In this document: positions 12,000 through 63,320 of the stretch, one piece after another | Numbering within the stretch: the stretch's first letter is position 1 | How the letters are laid out: the number at the start of each line of letters is the position of its first letter | Assembly: GCF_014127285.1 (NCBI RefSeq) | Contig: NZ_CP059901.1 | Location: forward strand, 2,790,001 to 2,854,000 | Direction: 5' to 3' | Length of the DNA: 64,000 bases | Origin: Mumia sp. ZJ1417 | GTDB taxonomy: Bacteria > Actinomycetota > Actinomycetes > Propionibacteriales > Nocardioidaceae | Translations under genes and position numbers: made by a program | The notes under the pieces: generated by a model | The model's database searches: none | Told to the model about the DNA's origin: nothing | Seen by the model: only the letters and a program-made list of their open reading frames with translations

Positions 12000-12536
12000 T
12001 CACTGGGCGAGGACGGCCTCACCGGTGATGGCGATGCTGATCTTGTCGCCGATCATGACCTTGTCACCCTCGAGCGGGATGTTGAAGTCGATGCCGAAGT
12101 CCTTGCGGCTGATCACCGTCGTGGCCTCGACACCCACACGGGTGCCGCCCCACGGGTCCTTGCCCTCGCCGAGGAACTCGACCGCGAGCTCGACCGAGCG
12201 CGTCACGTCCTTGATGGTGAGGTCGCCGGTCACGACGAACTCGGTGTCGGACTTCTCGACGACACCGGTCGAGGTGAACGTCATGGTGGGGTGGTTCTCG
12301 ACTGAGAAGAAGTCGGCCGAACGCAGGTGCGCGTCGCGATCAGGAGTGCCGGTGTTGATCGAGCTCAGGTCGATCGTCGCGGTGGCAGTCGACTCGGTGA
12401 TCTCGGGCGCGGTGGTGATGCTGCCCTCGAACTTCTCGAACTTGCCACGCACCTTGCTCATGAGGTGGCGGACGGTGAACCCGATCTCCGTGTGCGTGGG
12501 ATCGAAGTTCCAGGTGCCTGCGGTGATCTGTGCCAT
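12000..12536 (-). CDS. YceI-family lipid-binding protein
   Basis: A 178-residue YceI-domain protein. It opens with TWNFDPTHTEIGFTVRHLM and continues through VRGKFEKFEGSI and the SADFFSVENHPTMTFTST motif. The fold is a lipocalin-like barrel that binds isoprenoid or amide-type lipids. No signal peptide is present, so this is a cytosolic version, as is common in actinobacteria. It is divergent from a MarR gene, and shared repeats overlap both predicted -35 boxes, so it is probably the main target of that regulator. Confidence 0.9.
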   Translation of the reverse strand: MAQITAGTWNFDPTHTEIGFTVRHLMSKVRGKFEKFEGSITTAPEITESTATATIDLSSINTGTPDRDAHLRSADFFSVENHPTMTFTSTGVVEKSDTEFVVTGDLTIKDVTRSVELAVEFLGEGKDPWGGTRVGVEATTVISRKDFGIDFNIPLEGDKVMIGDKISIAITGEAVLAQ

Positions 12537-12633
12537 GTCGATGTGTGCCCTTCGGGTGTCGTGCGGGATCCTTGTGGTCGAGGTGTCGGCATCCCCGTAA
12601 GTTGTTGCGGTTTAAACCAACGAGCCTCACTGT

Positions 12634-12675
12634 ATCCACAACTAATTGAATCCACAACTATTCCCTGGGTACACT
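12634..12675. promoter_or_regulatory. Direct repeats over the divergent yceI/marR promoters
   Basis: ATCCACAACTA occurs at 12634-12644 and again at 12650-12660. A promoter for the MarR gene can be read as TTGAAT (12646-12651), 18 nt, TACACT (12670-12675), only 7 nt before the ATG. On the other strand TTGTGG from the first repeat can act as -35 for YceI. A perfect GGTTTAAACC palindrome lies at 12609-12618. The arrangement fits repression of both genes by MarR. Confidence 0.5.
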
Positions 12676-12682
12676 TCTGCTC

Positions 12683-13168
12683 ATGACCTCGACCACGCAG
12701 GCTTCCCCCGAGACACGCTGGCTCGACGACCGTCAGCAGGCGCTCTGGCGGTCGTTCCTGGGCGGCTCGACGGTGTTCTTCGACCAGCTCGACCGCGATC
12801 TGCGACGCGAGCACGACCTCTCGATGCCCGAGTACGAGATCCTCGTCCGCCTCTCCGAGGCCGACGACTGGACGCTCCGGATGGCCGAGGTCGCCGACAA
12901 GGTCGCCCACTCCCGGAGCCGCATCACGCACACCGTCGCCCGCCTCGAGCGCGCCGGTCTCGTCGAGCGCCGCTCGTGCGCCTCCGACGGGCGCGGCGTC
13001 AACGCCCAGCTCACGGAGGCCGGCATGGAGCGGCTGCGCGAGGCTGCCCACACCCATGTCGGCGGCGTGCGCCGCTACCTCCTCGACAACACGACCGACG
13101 AGGAGTTCGCCGTGGTCGGGCGGGTCTTCGAGCGCATCCTCACCGATCTCGGAGGCTCGCGCTTCTAG
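12683..13168 (+). CDS. MarR-family transcriptional regulator
   Basis: A 161-residue winged-helix MarR protein. The recognition region is VADKVAHSRSRITHTVARLERAGLVERR, followed by the wing CASDGRGVNAQLTEAG. Helices at both ends would form the dimer interface. The predicted -10 box is so close to ATG 12683 that the mRNA would be almost leaderless. It probably represses itself and the divergent yceI gene through the repeats between them. Confidence 0.9.
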   Translation: MTSTTQASPETRWLDDRQQALWRSFLGGSTVFFDQLDRDLRREHDLSMPEYEILVRLSEADDWTLRMAEVADKVAHSRSRITHTVARLERAGLVERRSCASDGRGVNAQLTEAGMERLREAAHTHVGGVRRYLLDNTTDEEFAVVGRVFERILTDLGGSRF

Positions 13169-45366: not shown

Positions 45367-46244
45367 GTCCGACCCCAGCGCGCGTCGAGCAGGTCCAGGA
45401 ACGCTGCCGCTGCCGGCGTCGGCCGGGAGCGGCTCCACGCGACGTGCTCCTCCCGCGCGGGCGCGTCGGCGATCGGGACCATACGGACGTCGGCGAGCGT
45501 CGCTGCGTACGCGCTGGGGAGCAGCGCGATCCCGAGCCGCTGCGCGACGAGCCGTGCCGCGAGGTCGCCGGTCGTCACCTCGAACGCGACGTGCCGCTCC
45601 AGCCCTGCGGCGGCAAACGCCTCGTCCGACTGCAGCCGCCCCGGCGTACCCGCGGTGAAGTCGACGAACGGGTACGGGGCGAGGGTCGCGAGGTCCGTAC
45701 GACGCTCCCCCGCCAGCGGGTGGTCCAGGGCGACGACGGCGACGTGCTCGTCCCGGCCGAGGATGCTGCTGCGCACGCCCTGCGGCACGCGTCCGGGCGG
45801 CAGCCCGAGGAACGCGACGTCCACCGAGCCTGCGGCGATCTGCGCCACCAGCTCCTGGCTGCCGCCGGTGCGCAGCGAGACGTCGACCCGGGGATGGGTC
45901 TCGTGGAAGCCGCGCAGCACGCTCGGCAGGTCGATCACCGTCACCGTCGGGATCGCCCCGAGCCGCAGGCGTCCGCTCACCACGCCGGAGACAGCGGCCG
46001 CCTCGGCACGCGCGCGTTCGGCGGCGTCGAGCGCCTCGCGTGCGGCGGGCAGGAAGGCCTCGCCCGCCGCGGTCGGCACGACACGCCGGCTCGTACGGTC
46101 GAACAGCCGCGCACCGACCTCGCGCTCGAGCTTGGCGACCTGGTGGCTCAGCGCGGACTGCACGACGTGGCACTGCTGCGCGGCGCGCGTGAAGCTGCGG
46201 GTCTCGGCGACCGCGATGACGTAGCGGAGTTGCTGGAGCTCCAT
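45363..46244 (-). CDS. LysR-family transcriptional regulator
   Basis: A 293-residue LysR protein with the N-terminal helix-turn-helix SFTRAAQQCHVVQSALSHQVAKLEREVG (about 17-44). The two-lobed periplasmic-binding-protein-like effector domain follows from about residue 90. It is divergent from an MFS gene 93 bp away. The intergenic DNA holds an inverted TGAGTC/GACTCA pair (46270-46275 and 46304-46309) that may be its binding site. Its last codons overlap the HupE-like gene 3' end by four bases on the opposite strand. Confidence 0.92.
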   Translation of the reverse strand: MELQQLRYVIAVAETRSFTRAAQQCHVVQSALSHQVAKLEREVGARLFDRTSRRVVPTAAGEAFLPAAREALDAAERARAEAAAVSGVVSGRLRLGAIPTVTVIDLPSVLRGFHETHPRVDVSLRTGGSQELVAQIAAGSVDVAFLGLPPGRVPQGVRSSILGRDEHVAVVALDHPLAGERRTDLATLAPYPFVDFTAGTPGRLQSDEAFAAAGLERHVAFEVTTGDLAARLVAQRLGIALLPSAYAATLADVRMVPIADAPAREEHVAWSRSRPTPAAAAFLDLLDARWGRT

Positions 46245-46336
46245 CCCTCCATCGTCGCAGGTCGATCAATTTGAGTCATGCTTGCTGTGACATCCATGTG
46301 TTGGACTCATGGCTTGCCGACCGCGACGCTGGAGGG

Positions 46337-47638
46337 ATGACCCGCCCGCTCCTCCTCCTGATGGCTCTCGCGACCGGCCTGTCGGTCTCCGCGAACTACC
46401 TCGCGCAGCCGCTGCTCGACGTCCTCGCGAGCGACCTCGGCATCTCCGAGGCGAGTGCGGGGACGATCGTGACGGCAGCGCAGGTCGGGTACGCGGTCGG
46501 GCTGCTGCTCGTGGTCCCGCTCGGCGACCTGCTGGAGCGACGCCGGCTCGCGGTCACGCTGCTCGGCGCGACCGCCGTCCTGCTCGTGGCGTCCTCGTTG
46601 GCACCGAGCGGGCGCGCACTGCTGGTCACGACGACGCTGACGGCACTGACGTCGGTCGCTGCGCAGGTCGTCGTCCCGTTCGCGGTGACGCTCGCAGACC
46701 CGGCGCGACGCGGGCAGGTCGTCGGCGTGGTGATGAGCGGGCTCCTGCTCGGGAGCATCGTGTCGCGCCCGATCTCCGGGGTGCTCTCGCAGCTCGCGGG
46801 ATGGCGCACGGTGTACGTGGTGTGCGGGGTGCTCGTGGCGGCGGTCGCGGTGGCGCTGTGGCACCGGCTGCCGACGCTGCACACGCCGAGCGGGATCGCG
46901 TACCCGCGTCTGATCGGGTCGACGCTCGCGCTCTTTGCTACGCAGCCGGTCCTGCGACGCCGTGCCCTGGTCGGCGCACTGTCCCTCGCGTCGTTCAACA
47001 CGTTCTGGACCGCGTCGACGTTCCTGCTCGCCACCTCGTACGGGTGGGCGGAGGCGGCGATCGGCGCGTTCGGCCTGATGGGGATCGCGGGCGTCGTGGC
47101 GACGCCGGTCGCGGGTCGGCTCGTCGACGCGGGGCGCGCCCGTACGGTCGCACGGGCGTCGACGCTCGCTCTCCCGGTGGCGTGGGGCGCGATCGCGCTC
47201 GGCGGAGGAGGCGGCACGGTCGGGCTCTGGTGGCTGCTCCTCGGCGTGCTGGTGCTCGTGGTGGCGCAGCAGATGCTGCTCAACGCCAACCAGAACGCGA
47301 TCTATGCGCTGGCGCCCGAGCTGCGCAACCGGCTCAACGCGGCGTTCATGGCGGCGTTCTTCGTCGGCGGGGCCGCAGGGTCGGCGGCGACGACCGTCGC
47401 GTGGGTCGCCGGCGGCTGGGGTGCGGTGAGTCTGCTCGGCGCGGTTCTCGCGGCCTCGACCTGCGTGGTGTGGCTCGAGGGACGGCGGGCGCCGAGGGAT
47501 CTCGATGCGGGCTCCGCTAGCGCTCCGACCAACGGGGCCCAACGCGGCTCCAGTGCCTCACGCGCCGAGCGCGGCTCCGCCGACGTCGCCGTGCGGCATC
47601 TCCTTCGCCGGGGATCTGGCCGAACCGTCCCTTGCTGA
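46337..47638 (+). CDS. MFS transporter (drug/sugar efflux type)
   Basis: The start was chosen at ATG 46337, giving 433 residues and twelve hydrophobic helices. It opens with LLLLMALATGLSVSANYLAQPLL. The loop motif GDLLERRRLAVTLL between TM2 and TM3 is the MFS motif A, and the protein resembles YnfM/AraJ-type exporters. The last ~45 residues (from about RRAPRDLD) are polar and Arg/Ser-rich, unlike a transporter end. They overlap antisense to a pirin remnant, so the original stop may have been lost. LysR probably regulates it. Confidence 0.88.
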   Translation: MTRPLLLLMALATGLSVSANYLAQPLLDVLASDLGISEASAGTIVTAAQVGYAVGLLLVVPLGDLLERRRLAVTLLGATAVLLVASSLAPSGRALLVTTTLTALTSVAAQVVVPFAVTLADPARRGQVVGVVMSGLLLGSIVSRPISGVLSQLAGWRTVYVVCGVLVAAVAVALWHRLPTLHTPSGIAYPRLIGSTLALFATQPVLRRRALVGALSLASFNTFWTASTFLLATSYGWAEAAIGAFGLMGIAGVVATPVAGRLVDAGRARTVARASTLALPVAWGAIALGGGGGTVGLWWLLLGVLVLVVAQQMLLNANQNAIYALAPELRNRLNAAFMAAFFVGGAAGSAATTVAWVAGGWGAVSLLGAVLAASTCVVWLEGRRAPRDLDAGSASAPTNGAQRGSSASRAERGSADVAVRHLLRRGSGRTVPC

Positions 47639-47678
47639 AGTCCTCGTACGCCTCCATGACCTCCTGACGTAACAGGGA
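47517..47678 (-). pseudogene. Pirin C-terminal fragment
   Basis: On the minus strand the frame ending at TAG 47517-47519 reads RQEVMEAYEDFSKGRFGQIPGE, which fits the terminal helix of pirin proteins (usual form: REE-x-x-x-A-x-x-D-x-x-x-G-R-F/L-G). The rest is Arg-rich. It lies in the correct order and strand below the N-terminal fragment at 48313-48450, but about 600 bp of unrelated DNA separates them. It overlaps the MFS 3' end antisense. Confidence 0.6.
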
Positions 47679-47691
47679 GACATGAGCGCGC

Positions 47692-47727
47692 AGTCCGCCA
47701 GGACGCCGGACGCTGCTCACGCAAAAG
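47692..47727. repeat. Left imperfect direct repeat of lipoprotein cassette
   Basis: A 36-nt sequence that starts AGTCCGCCAGGACGCCGGAC and ends CTCACGCAAAAG. It recurs in the same orientation at 48177-48213 with a few substitutions and one indel. The two copies flank the phage-type lipoprotein gene. Confidence 0.7.
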
Positions 47728-47734
47728 GCAACGG

Positions 47735-48139
47735 TCAGTCGTCGGCAGACGTGCGCAGGTCGATCGATGGGACGATCGCCTCCGGCTTAAACGTGACCCG
47801 ATAGTGGTTCGGGTCCGCGTACGAGCCTTCGATCTGCTCGACGAAGTACGAGACGTTGTCAGACAGCCCGAGGAAGTGCTTCTTGTAGGCGCCCTTCCCG
47901 ACCTTGCACGTCACTTCGAGTTGCCCGCCATCGTCCTCGATCGCGCACCGGCCCTCGATCGTCAGAAGGTACTTGTCCGTGATCCCGTTGAAGAACACGA
48001 CGCGGCGGTCGATCTCGAAGTTGTCGGCCGCCTTCGACAAGTTTTCGCTCACGACCACCGCATCATCTGAACACGCCGTCGTGAGCATGCCGATAGCGAC
48101 GACACCAGCGAGCGCGGTGAGCGACTTCTTTAACCTCAT
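47735..48139 (-). CDS. Phage-type beta-sandwich lipoprotein
   Basis: A 134-residue lipoprotein. A lipobox LTTAC places the lipidated Cys at residue 23 after a short signal peptide. The mature part (NLSKAADNFEIDRRVVFF, NGITDKYLL, IEGRC, KKHFLGLSDNVSYFVEQ, HYRVTFKPEAIVPSIDLRTS) matches from memory a protein very common in actinobacteriophage genomes, usually annotated only as a lipoprotein. Two Cys residues in the mature domain may pair. In other phages, lipoproteins of lysogens block superinfection; here this is only a hypothesis. The gene has lower G+C than its neighbours and sits between direct repeats inside a broken pirin gene. Confidence 0.8.
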   Translation of the reverse strand: MRLKKSLTALAGVVAIGMLTTACSDDAVVVSENLSKAADNFEIDRRVVFFNGITDKYLLTIEGRCAIEDDGGQLEVTCKVGKGAYKKHFLGLSDNVSYFVEQIEGSYADPNHYRVTFKPEAIVPSIDLRTSADD

Positions 48140-48176
48140 GTGGCCTCTTAGGACGTCAGGGAACGATCGGGGAGGG

Positions 48177-48213
48177 AGTCCGCCAGGGCGCCGCGCGCCG
48201 CTCAGGGCAAAAG
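48177..48213. repeat. Right imperfect direct repeat of lipoprotein cassette
   Basis: A 37-nt partner of 47692-47727: AGTCCGCCAGGGCGCCGCGC at the start and CTCAGGGCAAAAG at the end. About four fifths of positions match the left copy. Together they bound a ~0.5-kb cassette. Confidence 0.7.
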
Positions 48214-48218
48214 CGAAG

Positions 48219-48254
48219 CCCCCGGATCCGAGTAAGGGTGCCAGGGGCCGGGGG
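48219..48254. terminator. Weak GC-rich hairpin beside the cassette
   Basis: CCCCCGG (48219-48225) and CCGGGGG (48248-48254) form a perfect 7-bp stem with a 22-nt loop. It lies in the ~100 bp of unassigned DNA between the right direct repeat and the pirin N-terminal fragment. Confidence 0.35.
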
Positions 48255-48312
48255 TCAGCGGATCGGGAGCGGGTCGCGGGTGTAGGGGCCCCGGTCCGCC
48301 GCTAAGGCCGCA

Positions 48313-48450
48313 GCCGTCGGTGATCGATCCGCCGCTGTGGGAGTCGGCGTGGTCGAAGACGCCATCGAGCATGTAGGTCACGGTCTCGAAGCCGCGGTGC
48401 GGGTGCCACGGCGTGCCCTTGGGCTCGCCCGGCGCATATTCGACCTCGCC
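48313..48450 (-). pseudogene. Pirin N-terminal fragment
   Basis: The minus strand encodes GEVEYAPGEPKGTPWHPHRG, then FETVTYMLDGVFDHADS and HSGGSITDG. These are the unmistakable pirin N-domain segments with two of the metal-binding His. In intact pirin the next residues are the DVQWMTAG motif; here the frame runs instead into unrelated Pro/Gly-rich sequence. There is no room for the normal first ~35 residues upstream because the oxidoreductase gene begins at 48481. It is a dead remnant. Confidence 0.8.
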
Positions 48451-48480
48451 CACTCGACCAGCCAGCCTAGGCTGACCCGC

Positions 48481-49998
48481 ATGACTCACGACGTCGTCAT
48501 CGTCGGAGGCGGCCACAACGGTCTGGTCGCCGCAACCCTGCTCGCCCGCAGCGGCCTCCGTACGGTGCTGCTCGAACGCCTCGACCACACCGGCGGCGCC
48601 GCAGTGAGCGAGCGCCCGTTCCCCGGCATGGATGCGCGACTGTCGCGCTACTCCTACCTCGTCTCGCTCATGCCGCACGAGCTGGTCCGCGAGCTCGGCC
48701 TGAAGCTCGAGCTCCGCTCCCGCGCCACCGCCTCGTACACCCCGTACGAGGGCGGCGGGCTGCTCGTCGAGACGCACGAGGGGCGCGCGACAGCGGAGTC
48801 GTTCCGGCAGGCGACGGGGACCGACAGCGAGTACGAGGCCTGGCGGGCGTTCTACGGCGATGCCGAGACGCTCGCGCTGAGCGTCGCGCCGACCCTCCTG
48901 CAGCCGCTGCCGACCGCGGAGTCGCTGCGCGAGCAGGTCGGCGACGGCGTCTGGCGCGACCTCGTGGCGGAGCCACTTGGTCGTGCGGTCGAGCGGCGCT
49001 TCGCCAGCGACCTGGTCCGCGGCGTGGTCGCGACCGACGGTCTGATCGGCACCTACGCGTCGCTGGAGGACGAGTCGCTGCTGCAGAACCGGTGCTTCCT
49101 CTATCACCTGGTCGGCAACGGCACGGGCGAGTGGCGCGTCCCGGTCGGCGGCATGGGTGCGGTGACCGACGAGCTGCGCCGCGTCGCGGAGAAGGCCGGC
49201 GCGGAGATCCGTACGGGCGTGGAGGTGACGTCGGTCGACGCCGGGCTCGACGGTGTCGTCGTGCACGCCGACGGACTCACGCTCGAGGCGCGGTGGATGC
49301 TGTCGGGCGTCGCCCCGTACGTGCTCGCGGGGCTGCTCGGCGACCCGCTCCCCACGAAGCCGCAGGGCTCGCAGCTCAAGATCAACCTGCTCGTGGACCG
49401 GCTGCCGCGCCTGAAGTCGGGCGTCGACCCGAAGGTCGCGTTCGCAGGCACGTTCCACCTCGGCGAGACCTACTCCGAGCTCGCCCACGCGTACGCCGCG
49501 CCGTCGCCGGACCTCGCGTGCGGCGAGCTCTACTGCCACACGCTCACCGACCGGTCGATCCTTGGGCCGGAGCTGGCGGCGAGCGACGCGCAGACCCTCA
49601 CGTACTTCGGGATCCACTGGCCGTACGAGGCCTCCGACACCTATGCGAAGGAGCGCGGCTGGCGCGCCTTCGCGGCGGCAATCGACGCCTACCTCGAGGA
49701 GCCGATCGAGTCCGTGCTCGCGCGCGACGCGAACGGCGACCGCTGCGTCGAGGTCAAGACGCCGGCCGACATCGAGTCGGATCTCGCGATGCCGGGCGGC
49801 CACATCTTCCACGGCGACCTGCGCTGGCCGTGGGTCGAGCGGCTCGGTCACACACCGGCGGAGCGGTGGGGCGTCCAGACCGGGCACGCGCGCGTGCTGG
49901 TGTGCGGGTCGGGCGCGCGGCGCGGTGGTGCGGTCAGCGGCATCGGCGGGCACAACGCGGCGATGGCCGTGCTCGACCACGAGGGCCGGCACGCGTAG
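48481..49998 (+). CDS. FAD-dependent oxidoreductase, PYROXD2/phytoene desaturase-like
   Basis: The start was set at ATG 48481, since the in-frame extension covers antisense pirin DNA. A predicted -10-like TAGGCT sits 8-13 nt upstream, so the mRNA may be nearly leaderless. The 505-residue product begins with the dinucleotide fold DVVIVGGGHNGLVAATLLARSG. It has VPVGGMGAVTDELRRVAEKAG and a C-terminal GSGARRGGAVSGIGGHNAAM. It belongs to the NAD(P)/FAD carotenoid-desaturase-like group that includes human PYROXD2. The substrate is unknown, and no carotenoid genes are nearby. Confidence 0.87.
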   Translation: MTHDVVIVGGGHNGLVAATLLARSGLRTVLLERLDHTGGAAVSERPFPGMDARLSRYSYLVSLMPHELVRELGLKLELRSRATASYTPYEGGGLLVETHEGRATAESFRQATGTDSEYEAWRAFYGDAETLALSVAPTLLQPLPTAESLREQVGDGVWRDLVAEPLGRAVERRFASDLVRGVVATDGLIGTYASLEDESLLQNRCFLYHLVGNGTGEWRVPVGGMGAVTDELRRVAEKAGAEIRTGVEVTSVDAGLDGVVVHADGLTLEARWMLSGVAPYVLAGLLGDPLPTKPQGSQLKINLLVDRLPRLKSGVDPKVAFAGTFHLGETYSELAHAYAAPSPDLACGELYCHTLTDRSILGPELAASDAQTLTYFGIHWPYEASDTYAKERGWRAFAAAIDAYLEEPIESVLARDANGDRCVEVKTPADIESDLAMPGGHIFHGDLRWPWVERLGHTPAERWGVQTGHARVLVCGSGARRGGAVSGIGGHNAAMAVLDHEGRHA

Positions 49999-50008
49999 GC
50001 CAGCAGGC

Positions 50009-50056: not shown

Positions 50057-50299
50057 ATGACGCGCACGACCGTCCGACTCGACCCTGATGTCGCCGCAGC
50101 CGCAGATCGCCTGCGCCGCGAGCGTCACGTCGGATTGAGCGAGGCGGTGAACGAGCTGGCAAGAGCGGGGATGACCCGCACGTCGTCGACCTCACCGACC
50201 CCGTTTCGCCAACGCACCTCCGAGCTCGGCCTTCGCATCGACGTGTCGAATGTCGCTGAGGCGCTCGATCTCCTCGACGAGGCTGAGCCGACCACGTGA
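50057..50299 (+). CDS. vapB: VapB-type ribbon-helix-helix antitoxin
   Basis: An 80-residue protein whose N-terminus (TRTTVRLDPDVAAAADRLRRERHVGLSEAVNELARAG, in pieces) is a ribbon-helix-helix DNA-binding domain: one beta-strand and two helices. A flexible linker and a short helix (VAEALDLLDE) follow; the latter should wrap the toxin. It is autoregulated through the twin palindromes just upstream. Its stop overlaps the toxin start by four bases. Confidence 0.88.
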   Translation: MTRTTVRLDPDVAAAADRLRRERHVGLSEAVNELARAGMTRTSSTSPTPFRQRTSELGLRIDVSNVAEALDLLDEAEPTT

Positions 50300-50727
50300 T
50301 CGTCGACGCCAACGTCCTCCTCTACGCGGTCGACAGGACGAGCCCCTTCCACGAGGTGGCCGCAGAGTGGCTCGAAGGCGCACTGAGCGGCACCACGCGG
50401 ATCGGTTTCCCCTGGCCCACACTTCTTGCCTTCCAACGCATCGCGACACACCCGCGCGCCTCGGCGTCGCCACTGTCACCGGCCGAGGCGTGGAGCTTCG
50501 TCGAGGACTGGATCCAGGCAGAGCAGACGTGGATCCCGGTGCCGGGTCCGCGCCACGCCGAGGTTCTCGGACGTCTTCTCGTCGACGGTGACCTTCGGGC
50601 CAACCTTGTTCCGGACGCTCACCTCGCTGCCCTCGCCCTCGAGAACGGCGTCGGCGTGTGCTCGTTCGACAGCGACTTCGCGCGCTTCGACGGGCTCTCT
50701 TGGCACAACCCTTCTTTGGGGTGGTAG
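50296..50727 (+). CDS. vapC: VapC-type PIN-domain toxin
   Basis: A 143-residue PIN-domain ribonuclease from GTG 50296. The first acidic residue is in MIVDANVLLY. The C-terminal pair is in VPDAHLAALALENG and SFDSDFARF. The second conserved acidic position, usually Glu in TLLEFLR, is Ala here (TLLAFQRIATHP), as I recall for other members of this VapC subfamily. VapC toxins cut tRNA or rRNA when the antitoxin is degraded. The module stands alone and may be stress-related or a stabilising addiction unit. Confidence 0.9.
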   Translation: MIVDANVLLYAVDRTSPFHEVAAEWLEGALSGTTRIGFPWPTLLAFQRIATHPRASASPLSPAEAWSFVEDWIQAEQTWIPVPGPRHAEVLGRLLVDGDLRANLVPDAHLAALALENGVGVCSFDSDFARFDGLSWHNPSLGW

Positions 50728-61860: not shown

Positions 61861-62787
61861 CTAGGGGGGCGTCGAGCCCGGTTCGGGCGGCTCAATCGCA
61901 CTGCGAAGTCGGGCGAGGATCAAGGGATCCGCATCGTCACGGATTGTCACCTTGCTTGCGAGCCACGCGCGGCTAGCGTTCAACAGAGCCCAAATATCAG
62001 CACCAGCGAACTCAGCGTACTTTAGAACGGCGTATTGCGTCATCTCGTACGCTGCACGTAGGACGTCTGCCACGCCTTGGGTATCCGCAACCCGAATCTG
62101 TCGGGACTTTCCGTCCTCCACTGGCACTTCTACAAGTCGTTGCAGATCTTGTGTTGGCCAGTACATGCCGTGGGCGGAGCCGCTCGCCGCGCGCCAGAGG
62201 CGCTCGACTCGATCAGCTCCGAGGTCGAGGCCGTCTGCGTCGCACGCTCGCTGCAGAACCCAGAGGTAGCCCTGGGGCGGTCTAGTCTCATCCTCGGTGA
62301 ACACCTGCGAAACGCGACGAATAAGGTCATTCTCACGCGCGACCACCTGCTCTTTCTCATTTCGCTCCAGCTTGCTGCGTTTATGCTCCTGAAGGTCCCA
62401 GCGAATCAGGCAGAGATGGCGCCGAACGCACTCGACTGGCTCCCTAGTGTCGAGCATCCAAACAGCTTGAGCAGCAGACTCCATTGCAGCTCGAGCGAGG
62501 GTGTACGGGGGTCGCTGATGAAAGTTGGCTTCATGTTCCGGATGGAACTTGAACGGGGCGGCGTGGTCGGCCCACATGACCAGGTGCTCAAGCGCGGCAC
62601 CGACATAGGAACGTGCCCTCTCATCAACCGGTTCGTAGGGATAGAGATCACGCATCGCCGCGAAGTTTGATCCCTCGCAAGGTAACGGAACATTCCTGAA
62701 GATGTGCCAGCTGATGCGGGTCCCCTGGGCAACTTCGACCCATGCGCGGGAAGACTCTGGGTCTACCGGGACTCGTTCCTCAGTCAT
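61861..62787 (-). CDS. Uncharacterised helical protein (308 aa)
   Basis: A 308-residue protein with no signal peptide or membrane segment and mostly helical character. Features that may be functional are ARAAMESAAQAVWMLD (about 98-113), a charged helix DLQEHKRSKLERNEKEQVV, and ASGSAHGMYWPTQ (about 202-214) with an isolated conserved-looking His. The pattern of Arg in one helix and a later His is reminiscent of HEPN-type folds, but the R-x(4-6)-H motif is not present. The gene is convergent with the TM-protein pair and has visibly lower G+C than the left part of the window. Confidence 0.65.
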   Translation of the reverse strand: MTEERVPVDPESSRAWVEVAQGTRISWHIFRNVPLPCEGSNFAAMRDLYPYEPVDERARSYVGAALEHLVMWADHAAPFKFHPEHEANFHQRPPYTLARAAMESAAQAVWMLDTREPVECVRRHLCLIRWDLQEHKRSKLERNEKEQVVARENDLIRRVSQVFTEDETRPPQGYLWVLQRACDADGLDLGADRVERLWRAASGSAHGMYWPTQDLQRLVEVPVEDGKSRQIRVADTQGVADVLRAAYEMTQYAVLKYAEFAGADIWALLNASRAWLASKVTIRDDADPLILARLRSAIEPPEPGSTPP

Positions 62788-63320
62788 GTGTGGAGCGTAG
62801 ACCCGACCGTCGCCATATCTCTAGCGCACCTGCCAAATCATCACACATCCGCTTCTTCGCCCGGGAAGGCGGAATGGCACTTGGGATCAACTCGTACAGC
62901 CACAGACACACGGCGACCGCCCGGCAAGGTCGCAACGAGAGGCCCCGGTCTTTGCTCCTCTTTCGACGCCGCGAATCAGACGCCGCAAATCAGTAACGAG
63001 TTCCGAGACGCTCGATCGCGTGCTGACCGCCTCGAAAGTGGGGCCAGAGCGACCGATTGGTTGCCGGGAGTCATCGCAACTGTCCAGTCTTCGAGCGTCA
63101 TCGACAGCGGCGAATAGGGCTGGCAGGCGACAACCGAACGCAAGGTCGCCAGACCTCGGGCGGCAGGACCAGGACGTGGGTCACCGTAGAAGGCGAGTGT
63201 TCGGCCATTACCCGGTCTCGTACCGAAGTCGGATCGTAGTAGCTCAAGCAGGTTGCAACGGTGGATGAGCATTCCAGCAATTGTCAGACGGACTGTCGGC
63301 GATGTCCCTACGGTGGCGTA
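62788..63320. other. 533-bp region without a supportable gene
   Basis: Several short frames exist on both strands, including a longer one on the minus strand that extends across the start of the TIR gene, but none has consistent protein-like composition, a ribosome site or recognisable motifs. The segment should contain the promoter of the TIR gene and that of the 308-residue gene. TTGTCA at 63281-63286 could be a -35 box, but no well-spaced -10 follows. Confidence 0.5.

Follow-up and report, generated by a model that had tools for sequence, protein, structure and literature searches.

Single genes that phages carry together with their own signals are known as morons. Phage T5 makes a superinfection-excluding lipoprotein that is said to block an outer-membrane receptor of Gram-negative bacteria. 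Ltp, a surface lipoprotein of the Streptococcus thermophilus phage TP-J34, is described as blocking phage DNA injection and as having repeat domains and a spacer rich in serine (PMC3952083), and the term moron has been applied to its gene, ltp (PMC6356513). Here we describe a phage-type lipoprotein gene that stands alone in the chromosome of the actinobacterium Mumia sp. ZJ1417, within the remains of a pirin gene. It lies in a 64,000-nucleotide (nt) stretch (contig NZ_CP059901.1, positions 2,790,001–2,854,000; hereafter the window), at positions 47735–48139 on the minus strand, and encodes 134 amino acids (aa); the sequence AAGAGG, a possible ribosome-binding site, lies 4 nt before its ATG. 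The reading that we place first, and hold tentatively, is that a phage accessory lipoprotein was captured by the Mumia chromosome and then exchanged between species, and that it may interfere with the infection of other phages at an early stage.

The protein matches PF25682 (Phage_VG64) over the full length of the profile (residues 2–127 of 127; E 6.8e-54, 181.5 bits against a cut-off of 27) and phrog_478 (E 6.3e-54), and so belongs to this family of phage lipoproteins. It shares with them the lipobox and a cysteine pair, and differs in being encoded alone in a chromosome, in a pirin remnant, with no other phage gene among the neighbours that were scanned (a major facilitator superfamily (MFS) transporter, a LysR protein, a HupE/UreJ-like protein and a flavin adenine dinucleotide (FAD) oxidoreductase). 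A lipobox was recognised by pattern in 142 of the 158 family members and, in the window protein, at Cys23, and on this basis the protein is predicted to be exported and lipidated at that residue. Nine positions are invariant among 59 aligned members (C23, N33, F41, R45, N51, G63, C65, N95 and P119). These sequences, the window protein and 58 of the 158 loci, were hand-picked, mostly for a clear start and a lipobox, so that the invariance of Cys23 is partly a selection effect. Besides this lipid-bearing residue two further cysteines are conserved, Cys65, which is invariant, and Cys78 (90% or more). The best structure model (predicted local distance difference test (pLDDT) 85.1, predicted template modelling score (pTM) 0.65) consists of a signal helix, one further helix and five strands that form a beta-meander, and a search of a viral fold library gave four matches at E 0.001 or less, the best being a lipoprotein of Corynebacterium phage Darwin and one being named an adhesin.

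Like Ltp, this is a small phage-encoded type of lipoprotein with a signal sequence, and it may work likewise. Its predicted fold of one helix and a beta-meander sets it apart from Ltp as described in PMC3952083, and no Ltp-type serine-rich spacer or repeat domain was seen by eye in the Mumia sequence or model. With the T5 protein it has in common that both are phage lipoproteins predicted to lie at the cell surface; PF25682, however, occurs in phages of Gram-positive as well as Gram-negative hosts. The likeness to morons lies in the single gene, in the terminator-like hairpin that follows it in a second Mumia genome and in its unrelated neighbours in different phages, whereas the Mumia gene is in a chromosome, outside any recognisable prophage.

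The source genome, a single contig of 4.19 Mb (G000), was compared with five other genomes of the genus (G001–G005). An uninterrupted pirin gene, with an open frame of 329 aa, stands at the same site in three of the five (G001, G003 and G005), where it is flanked by the same MFS and FAD-oxidoreductase genes. In the window, an N-terminal pirin fragment (48313–48456, minus strand; Pfam Pirin, E 5e-10) runs from residue 63 to about residue 110 of 329 and has lost the start codon; blastx extends the match to residues 63–133, down to position 48253, whereas DNA homology ends at 48313 (about residue 110). The C-terminal fragment (47561–47669, minus strand) covers residues 294–329 and is frameshifted. 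Residues 1–62 and about 111–293 are gone. The initial annotation had described two pirin fragments without the middle of the gene; the comparison with the three intact frames agrees with this, and the N-terminal fragment lies where it was placed, but the C-terminal one is shorter than the 47517–47678 then given. The place of the missing middle is taken by a foreign segment (47670–48312), on both sides of which DNA homology to the pirin genes of the three relatives ends, near 47669 and 48313, so that some 640 nt replace about 550 nt of pirin. The guanine plus cytosine (GC) content of the lipoprotein gene is 60.0% against a mean of 69.9% for the whole stretch, and 7 of 786 windows are as low.

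The pirin gene of G002 is broken by the same insert, but its start has been lost differently, 67 nt more being retained than in the source genome. In G004 both pirin and the insert are absent from the site, which shows that the pirin site is unstable in the genus even without the lipoprotein gene. Two further pirin-domain loci exist in the source genome, and the pirin at this site was therefore probably dispensable. Short repeated pieces resembling window positions 47490–47533 occupy the place of pirin in G004 (L226, 3299–3670). Repeats of the repetitive extragenic palindrome (REP) type were considered as a cause of pirin decay and set aside, as a 16-nt motif from the relatives is not enriched in the source genome (2 occurrences against 5 for a control).

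The block that contains the insert is nearly identical in the source genome and G002. It spans approximately 47460–48500; 100-nt bins over 47500–48499 are 95–100% identical, while the flanking bins that align (45400–49999) are 63–93% identical, with 89–92% at 47000–47499, 93% at 48500 and 74–91% at 48600–49999. When the whole window was compared with G002 in 700-nt windows, the mean identity was 83.5% (standard deviation 4.9, n=348), and every window of at least 93% lay over this block. Synonymous divergence (dS) between the two genomes is 0.027 in the lipoprotein gene, compared with 0.72 in the LysR gene, 0.69 and 0.30 in the 5′ and 3′ halves of the MFS gene, and 0.18 and 0.44 in the first 120 nt and the rest of the FAD gene; values of 0.40–0.72 span LysR, the 5′ part of MFS, the rest of FAD and the gene that follows it. 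Since about 1 kb is 95–100% identical where the two species otherwise differ by about 16%, the movement appears to be recent. Selection does not easily explain this near-identity, because the pirin rubble is itself nearly identical. The exchanged block of about 1 kb includes the pirin remnants, which argues for homologous recombination and against excision at the repeats described below, and the graded edges of the block fit such an event. The simplest reading of these alignments is thus a recent transfer of about 1 kb between species by homologous recombination. G002 retains a hairpin that the window lacks, and a longer part of the pirin start.

Imperfect direct repeats flank the gene, as the initial annotation had noticed. 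The upstream copy (48177–48214) is 37 nt before the gene start and the downstream copy (47692–47729) 5 nt past its end; they are 79% identical without gaps over 38 nt, or alike in 31 of 37 columns when aligned with gaps over the slightly shorter limits first proposed. Their ungapped score of 22 compares with 10.0 ± 1.3 for the null and was reached in none of 500 Markov resamplings. As 1 of 437 sliding control positions in the window equals it, the pair is above chance, yet not overwhelming. G002 also carries a repeat pair, with a score of 21.

These repeats had been taken as the ends of a minimal mobile cassette, moved by site-specific recombination. Such a mechanism would be in keeping with the presence of repeats around the gene in both Mumia genomes and with the recent mobility of the block, but we consider it very unlikely. 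There is no recombinase or integrase among the scanned neighbours, an absence that the initial annotation had itself recorded; the repeats are just 79–84% alike; and the exchanged block exceeds the unit that they bound. The three intact-pirin sites lack a repeat copy (best 21–23 of 38 positions, against 21–24 in controls), and flanking repeats with a score of at least 16 were found at none of 73 bacterial family loci (control 9/403), so that the expected repeat-bounded cassette did not appear in relatives. Among viral loci the figure was 6 of 68 (control 5/394); L116, identical genes and genes with less than 200 nt of flank were omitted from this test. Judged by eye, moreover, similarity among 14 Nocardia and Pseudonocardia loci breaks off close to the start and stop codons, except between close relatives. 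What stands of the earlier proposal of a mobile phage-type lipoprotein is therefore the recent movement and the insertion into a pirin gene of which relatives have an intact copy, and not the repeats as cassette ends.

Some of the viral repeat pairs resemble, by eye, pairs of transfer RNA (tRNA) genes or repeated promoter-like motifs, and in the viral contigs L036, L037 and L038 the lipoprotein gene apparently lies between tRNA-like repeats. The Mumia repeat was also considered as the end of a known mobile element and rejected: a 28-nt degenerate pattern found no stretch in the viral contigs, and a 16-nt core, which occurs exactly only at the two window sites genome-wide, has 35 further near-matches when two mismatches are allowed (24 forward, 11 reverse), against 26 for a reversed control pattern.

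Relative to G002, the window lacks 37 nt between 47729 and 47730 that include a strong hairpin. In G002 this hairpin, which has a T-run, folds at −35.1 kcal/mol (z −6.0) and is directly followed by the downstream repeat; a terminator scan, by its own rules, reports none in G002 despite the strong fold. The stretch before the upstream repeat does not fold significantly (z −1.1). Because the downstream copy follows the hairpin, we take the repeats as possibly belonging to an intergenic unit in the donor and not as proven recombination sites. The 98 nt between the upstream repeat and the pirin fragment gave only short matches in 8 of 333 genomes of the bacterial family besides G000 and G002, one of them by eye a cobK-type frame, and matched 7 plasmid records, all at E 0.01 or worse. 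Nothing supported the idea that a short open frame in this stretch, ending GPYTRDPLPIR, is the end of a donor gene.

The lipoprotein is foreign to its clade, as had been supposed, the family being found in 2 of 341 Nocardioidaceae genomes, both in the genus Mumia, and in 2 of 396 sampled Actinomycetota, one of which is the source genome. The initial annotation had also described it as known mainly from actinobacteriophages. The phage type stands, but the family is wider: tblastn found it in 797 of 50,697 phage records, with host names led by Mycobacterium (326), Gordonia (79), Bacillus (78), Streptococcus (51) and Staphylococcus (47) and continuing with Streptomyces (32), Arthrobacter (31), Proteus (17), Vibrio (16), Erwinia (13) and 32 more names. 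It is also in 34 of 72,556 plasmid records. Scans of viral contigs and genomes, which were seeded by exact matches to short peptides from the window protein and favour close relatives, yielded 293 confirmed stretches in viral contigs (80 retained) and 78 distinct genome loci. In eight annotated phage examples the neighbouring genes are unrelated and mostly hypothetical or concerned with DNA metabolism. In a quick tree of 119 of 159 rows (those with no pattern lipobox, odd length or an identical mature part were omitted), many forks are unresolved; the window protein groups with the G002 copy (Shimodaira–Hasegawa-like approximate likelihood ratio test (SH-aLRT) 98) and falls among phage and bacterial members. 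The nearest row outside the genus, by path, is the viral contig L035, 83% identical over 111 residues. Searches of open-licence articles in PubMed Central (PMC) turned up nothing on PF25682 or phrog_478 by name; one article describes a lipoprotein encoded by Adephagia gene 40 (PMC11373665).

Many RefSeq phage records name this lipoprotein 'site-specific recombination directionality factor RDF'. Taken at its word, this label, which stands in PHROGs as well as in the phage records, would make the Mumia gene an RDF left behind by a prophage. An RDF is cytoplasmic and works with an integrase, whereas a lipobox in 142 of 158 members implies export and the scanned neighbours include no integrase. 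The family gene is present in Twort and SP82G, which we take to be lytic phages without an integrase, and A118 gp44 (72 aa), presumably the RDF of that Listeria phage, gave no blastp hit. For these reasons the label is doubtful and is probably a propagated mislabel, and an RDF origin of the gene is highly improbable. Nor does the locus look like a prophage remnant, as had been suggested: no phage gene was found among the scanned neighbours, and the stretch with the LysR, MFS and FAD genes can be aligned in each of the five other genus genomes.

Lone chromosomal copies are also found in Nocardia, where 21 of 148 genomes have the family, one match being a C-terminal fragment. By flank DNA the other 20 copies fall into 15 context groups (16 including the fragment), a number that may be an overcount, as a single site whose flanks have diverged could be counted more than once. 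Nearby genes were called at 11 loci (ten in Nocardia, one in Pseudonocardia; 66 proteins), and 19 of these proteins, from the ten Nocardia loci, were scanned against Pfam. Fourteen of the 19 match families that we regard as ordinary chromosomal ones, including cutinase, LysR, a globin-type flavoprotein, wax ester synthase, a desaturase, cyclopropane synthase and an aldo/keto reductase (and counting one ambiguous Fic protein), three are unmatched, and two, Thg1 and an RNA ligase, are phage-like. Both phage-like neighbours are at L158, which is therefore probably a prophage; judged by these genes, the other nine of the ten Nocardia loci are not obviously so. In nine Nocardia copies the gene has a GC content of 57–61% in flanks of 65–75%.

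The ratio of nonsynonymous to synonymous substitution rates (dN/dS) has a median of 0.15 over 44 usable Nocardia pairs (equal length, dS 0.05–1.5 only). Since 42 of the 44 join different contexts, this median may stem from selection that acted while the genes were still in phages. The only two usable pairs from the same site have ratios of 0.15 and 0.07, a small sample that suggests selection on the chromosome.

We propose the following for the Mumia locus. A phage accessory ('moron') lipoprotein gene would have entered a Mumia chromosome through illegitimate recombination that replaced the middle of a dispensable pirin gene, bringing with it intergenic DNA of the donor, namely the repeated element at both sides together with, in G002, the strong terminator-like hairpin. 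Homologous recombination over about 1 kb would later have carried the locus from one Mumia species to another. The gene would be translated into a Sec-exported protein with a lipid at Cys23, whose helix and five-stranded beta domain, including the conserved pair of cysteines, would lie on the outer side of the membrane. There it would most likely hinder other phages early in infection. Capture followed by spread is well supported as a pattern; as a process, with a phage as the immediate donor, we infer it. Phage exclusion as the function is a guess, made first by analogy with Ltp (PMC3952083), and one that we regard as possible but doubtful.

Several observations weigh against this proposal. 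The Mumia lipoprotein pair differs by six nonsynonymous and two synonymous changes (dN/dS about 0.7), and no selection is demonstrated in Mumia. The strong hairpin has been lost from the source genome, where only a weak terminator-like site of 5 pairs remains, overlapping the end of the lipoprotein gene, and no sigma-70-type promoter was found for the gene. No donor phage was found: in the 15 listed rows of 497 records, DNA similarity is confined to the gene. The other four of the five structure models are poorer (pLDDT 66.9–72.9), a fold search of the PDB gave no match below E 0.1, a separate search of solved structures gave three matches with a best E of 0.99, and PADLOC defence families gave no convincing match to the 59 members (best E 0.012). 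Finally, members from phages of Bacillota, Actinomycetota and Pseudomonadota hosts are about 60% identical; this is more conservation than is usual for an exclusion protein caught in an arms race, and it suggests instead a general target in the host or its envelope.

This last point bears on an alternative in which the protein modifies a conserved envelope function of the host, such as an export, cell-wall or lipid step, in favour of phage growth, and is kept in chromosomes for a related benefit. The strong conservation across phages of several phyla (nine invariant residues in the 59 chosen members), the presence of the gene in the presumably lytic Twort and SP82G and in other phages with unrelated neighbours, and the low dN/dS among Nocardia copies would all be expected of such a protein. 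No enzymatic motif was found in the lipoprotein, however, it has no known fold, and no common neighbouring chromosomal gene names a pathway; we regard this alternative as a credible one, to be entertained with some reserve.

Decay without function is a further explanation, by which the gene would be a neutral relic of phage DNA in Mumia. The dN/dS of about 0.7, the loss of the strong hairpin, the surrounding pirin rubble and the probable dispensability of a site for which two other pirin-domain loci exist are what a relic would leave. On the other hand, both genomes have kept the frame, the lipobox and all nine invariant residues, the block has moved recently between species, and the two same-site Nocardia pairs have low dN/dS, and so we think a relic unlikely.

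Returning to the capture and exchange of a phage lipoprotein, the spread of the family among phages of hosts from different phyla, the approximately 15 Nocardia sites and the passage between Mumia species together raise a wider reading, which we offer as speculative. PF25682 may be a self-sufficient one-gene mobile trait, repeatedly captured as a lone chromosomal gene and kept by selection, an uncharacterised anti-phage or envelope-control system under the wrong name of RDF. The combination of about 60% identity across phages of three host phyla with lone chromosomal copies probably points to a general role at the cell envelope, and the current database name would mislead those who search for it. 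If the protein does exclude phages, it would be a one-gene defence that is easily tested and may be widespread; otherwise it probably acts on some conserved component of the bacterial surface. This broader pattern, in which a phage lipoprotein under a doubtful label also occurs by itself in chromosomes, is in our view the more interesting result.

Two neighbouring genes lie on the plus strand: an MFS transporter gene (46337–47638; start chosen by eye), whose open frame overlaps the C-terminal pirin remnant, and a gene for an FAD/amine-oxidase-like oxidoreductase (48481–49998), a conserved neighbour by which the site can be recognised. Elsewhere in the window, GC content falls to 57–60% at 62209–63018, equal to or below that of the lipoprotein gene, and this may be another foreign segment; a second, smaller dip to about 60% lies at 12313–12798. 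A pair of open reading frames of 80 and 143 aa at 50057–50727, unaligned in G002, looks by eye like a VapBC-type toxin–antitoxin pair.

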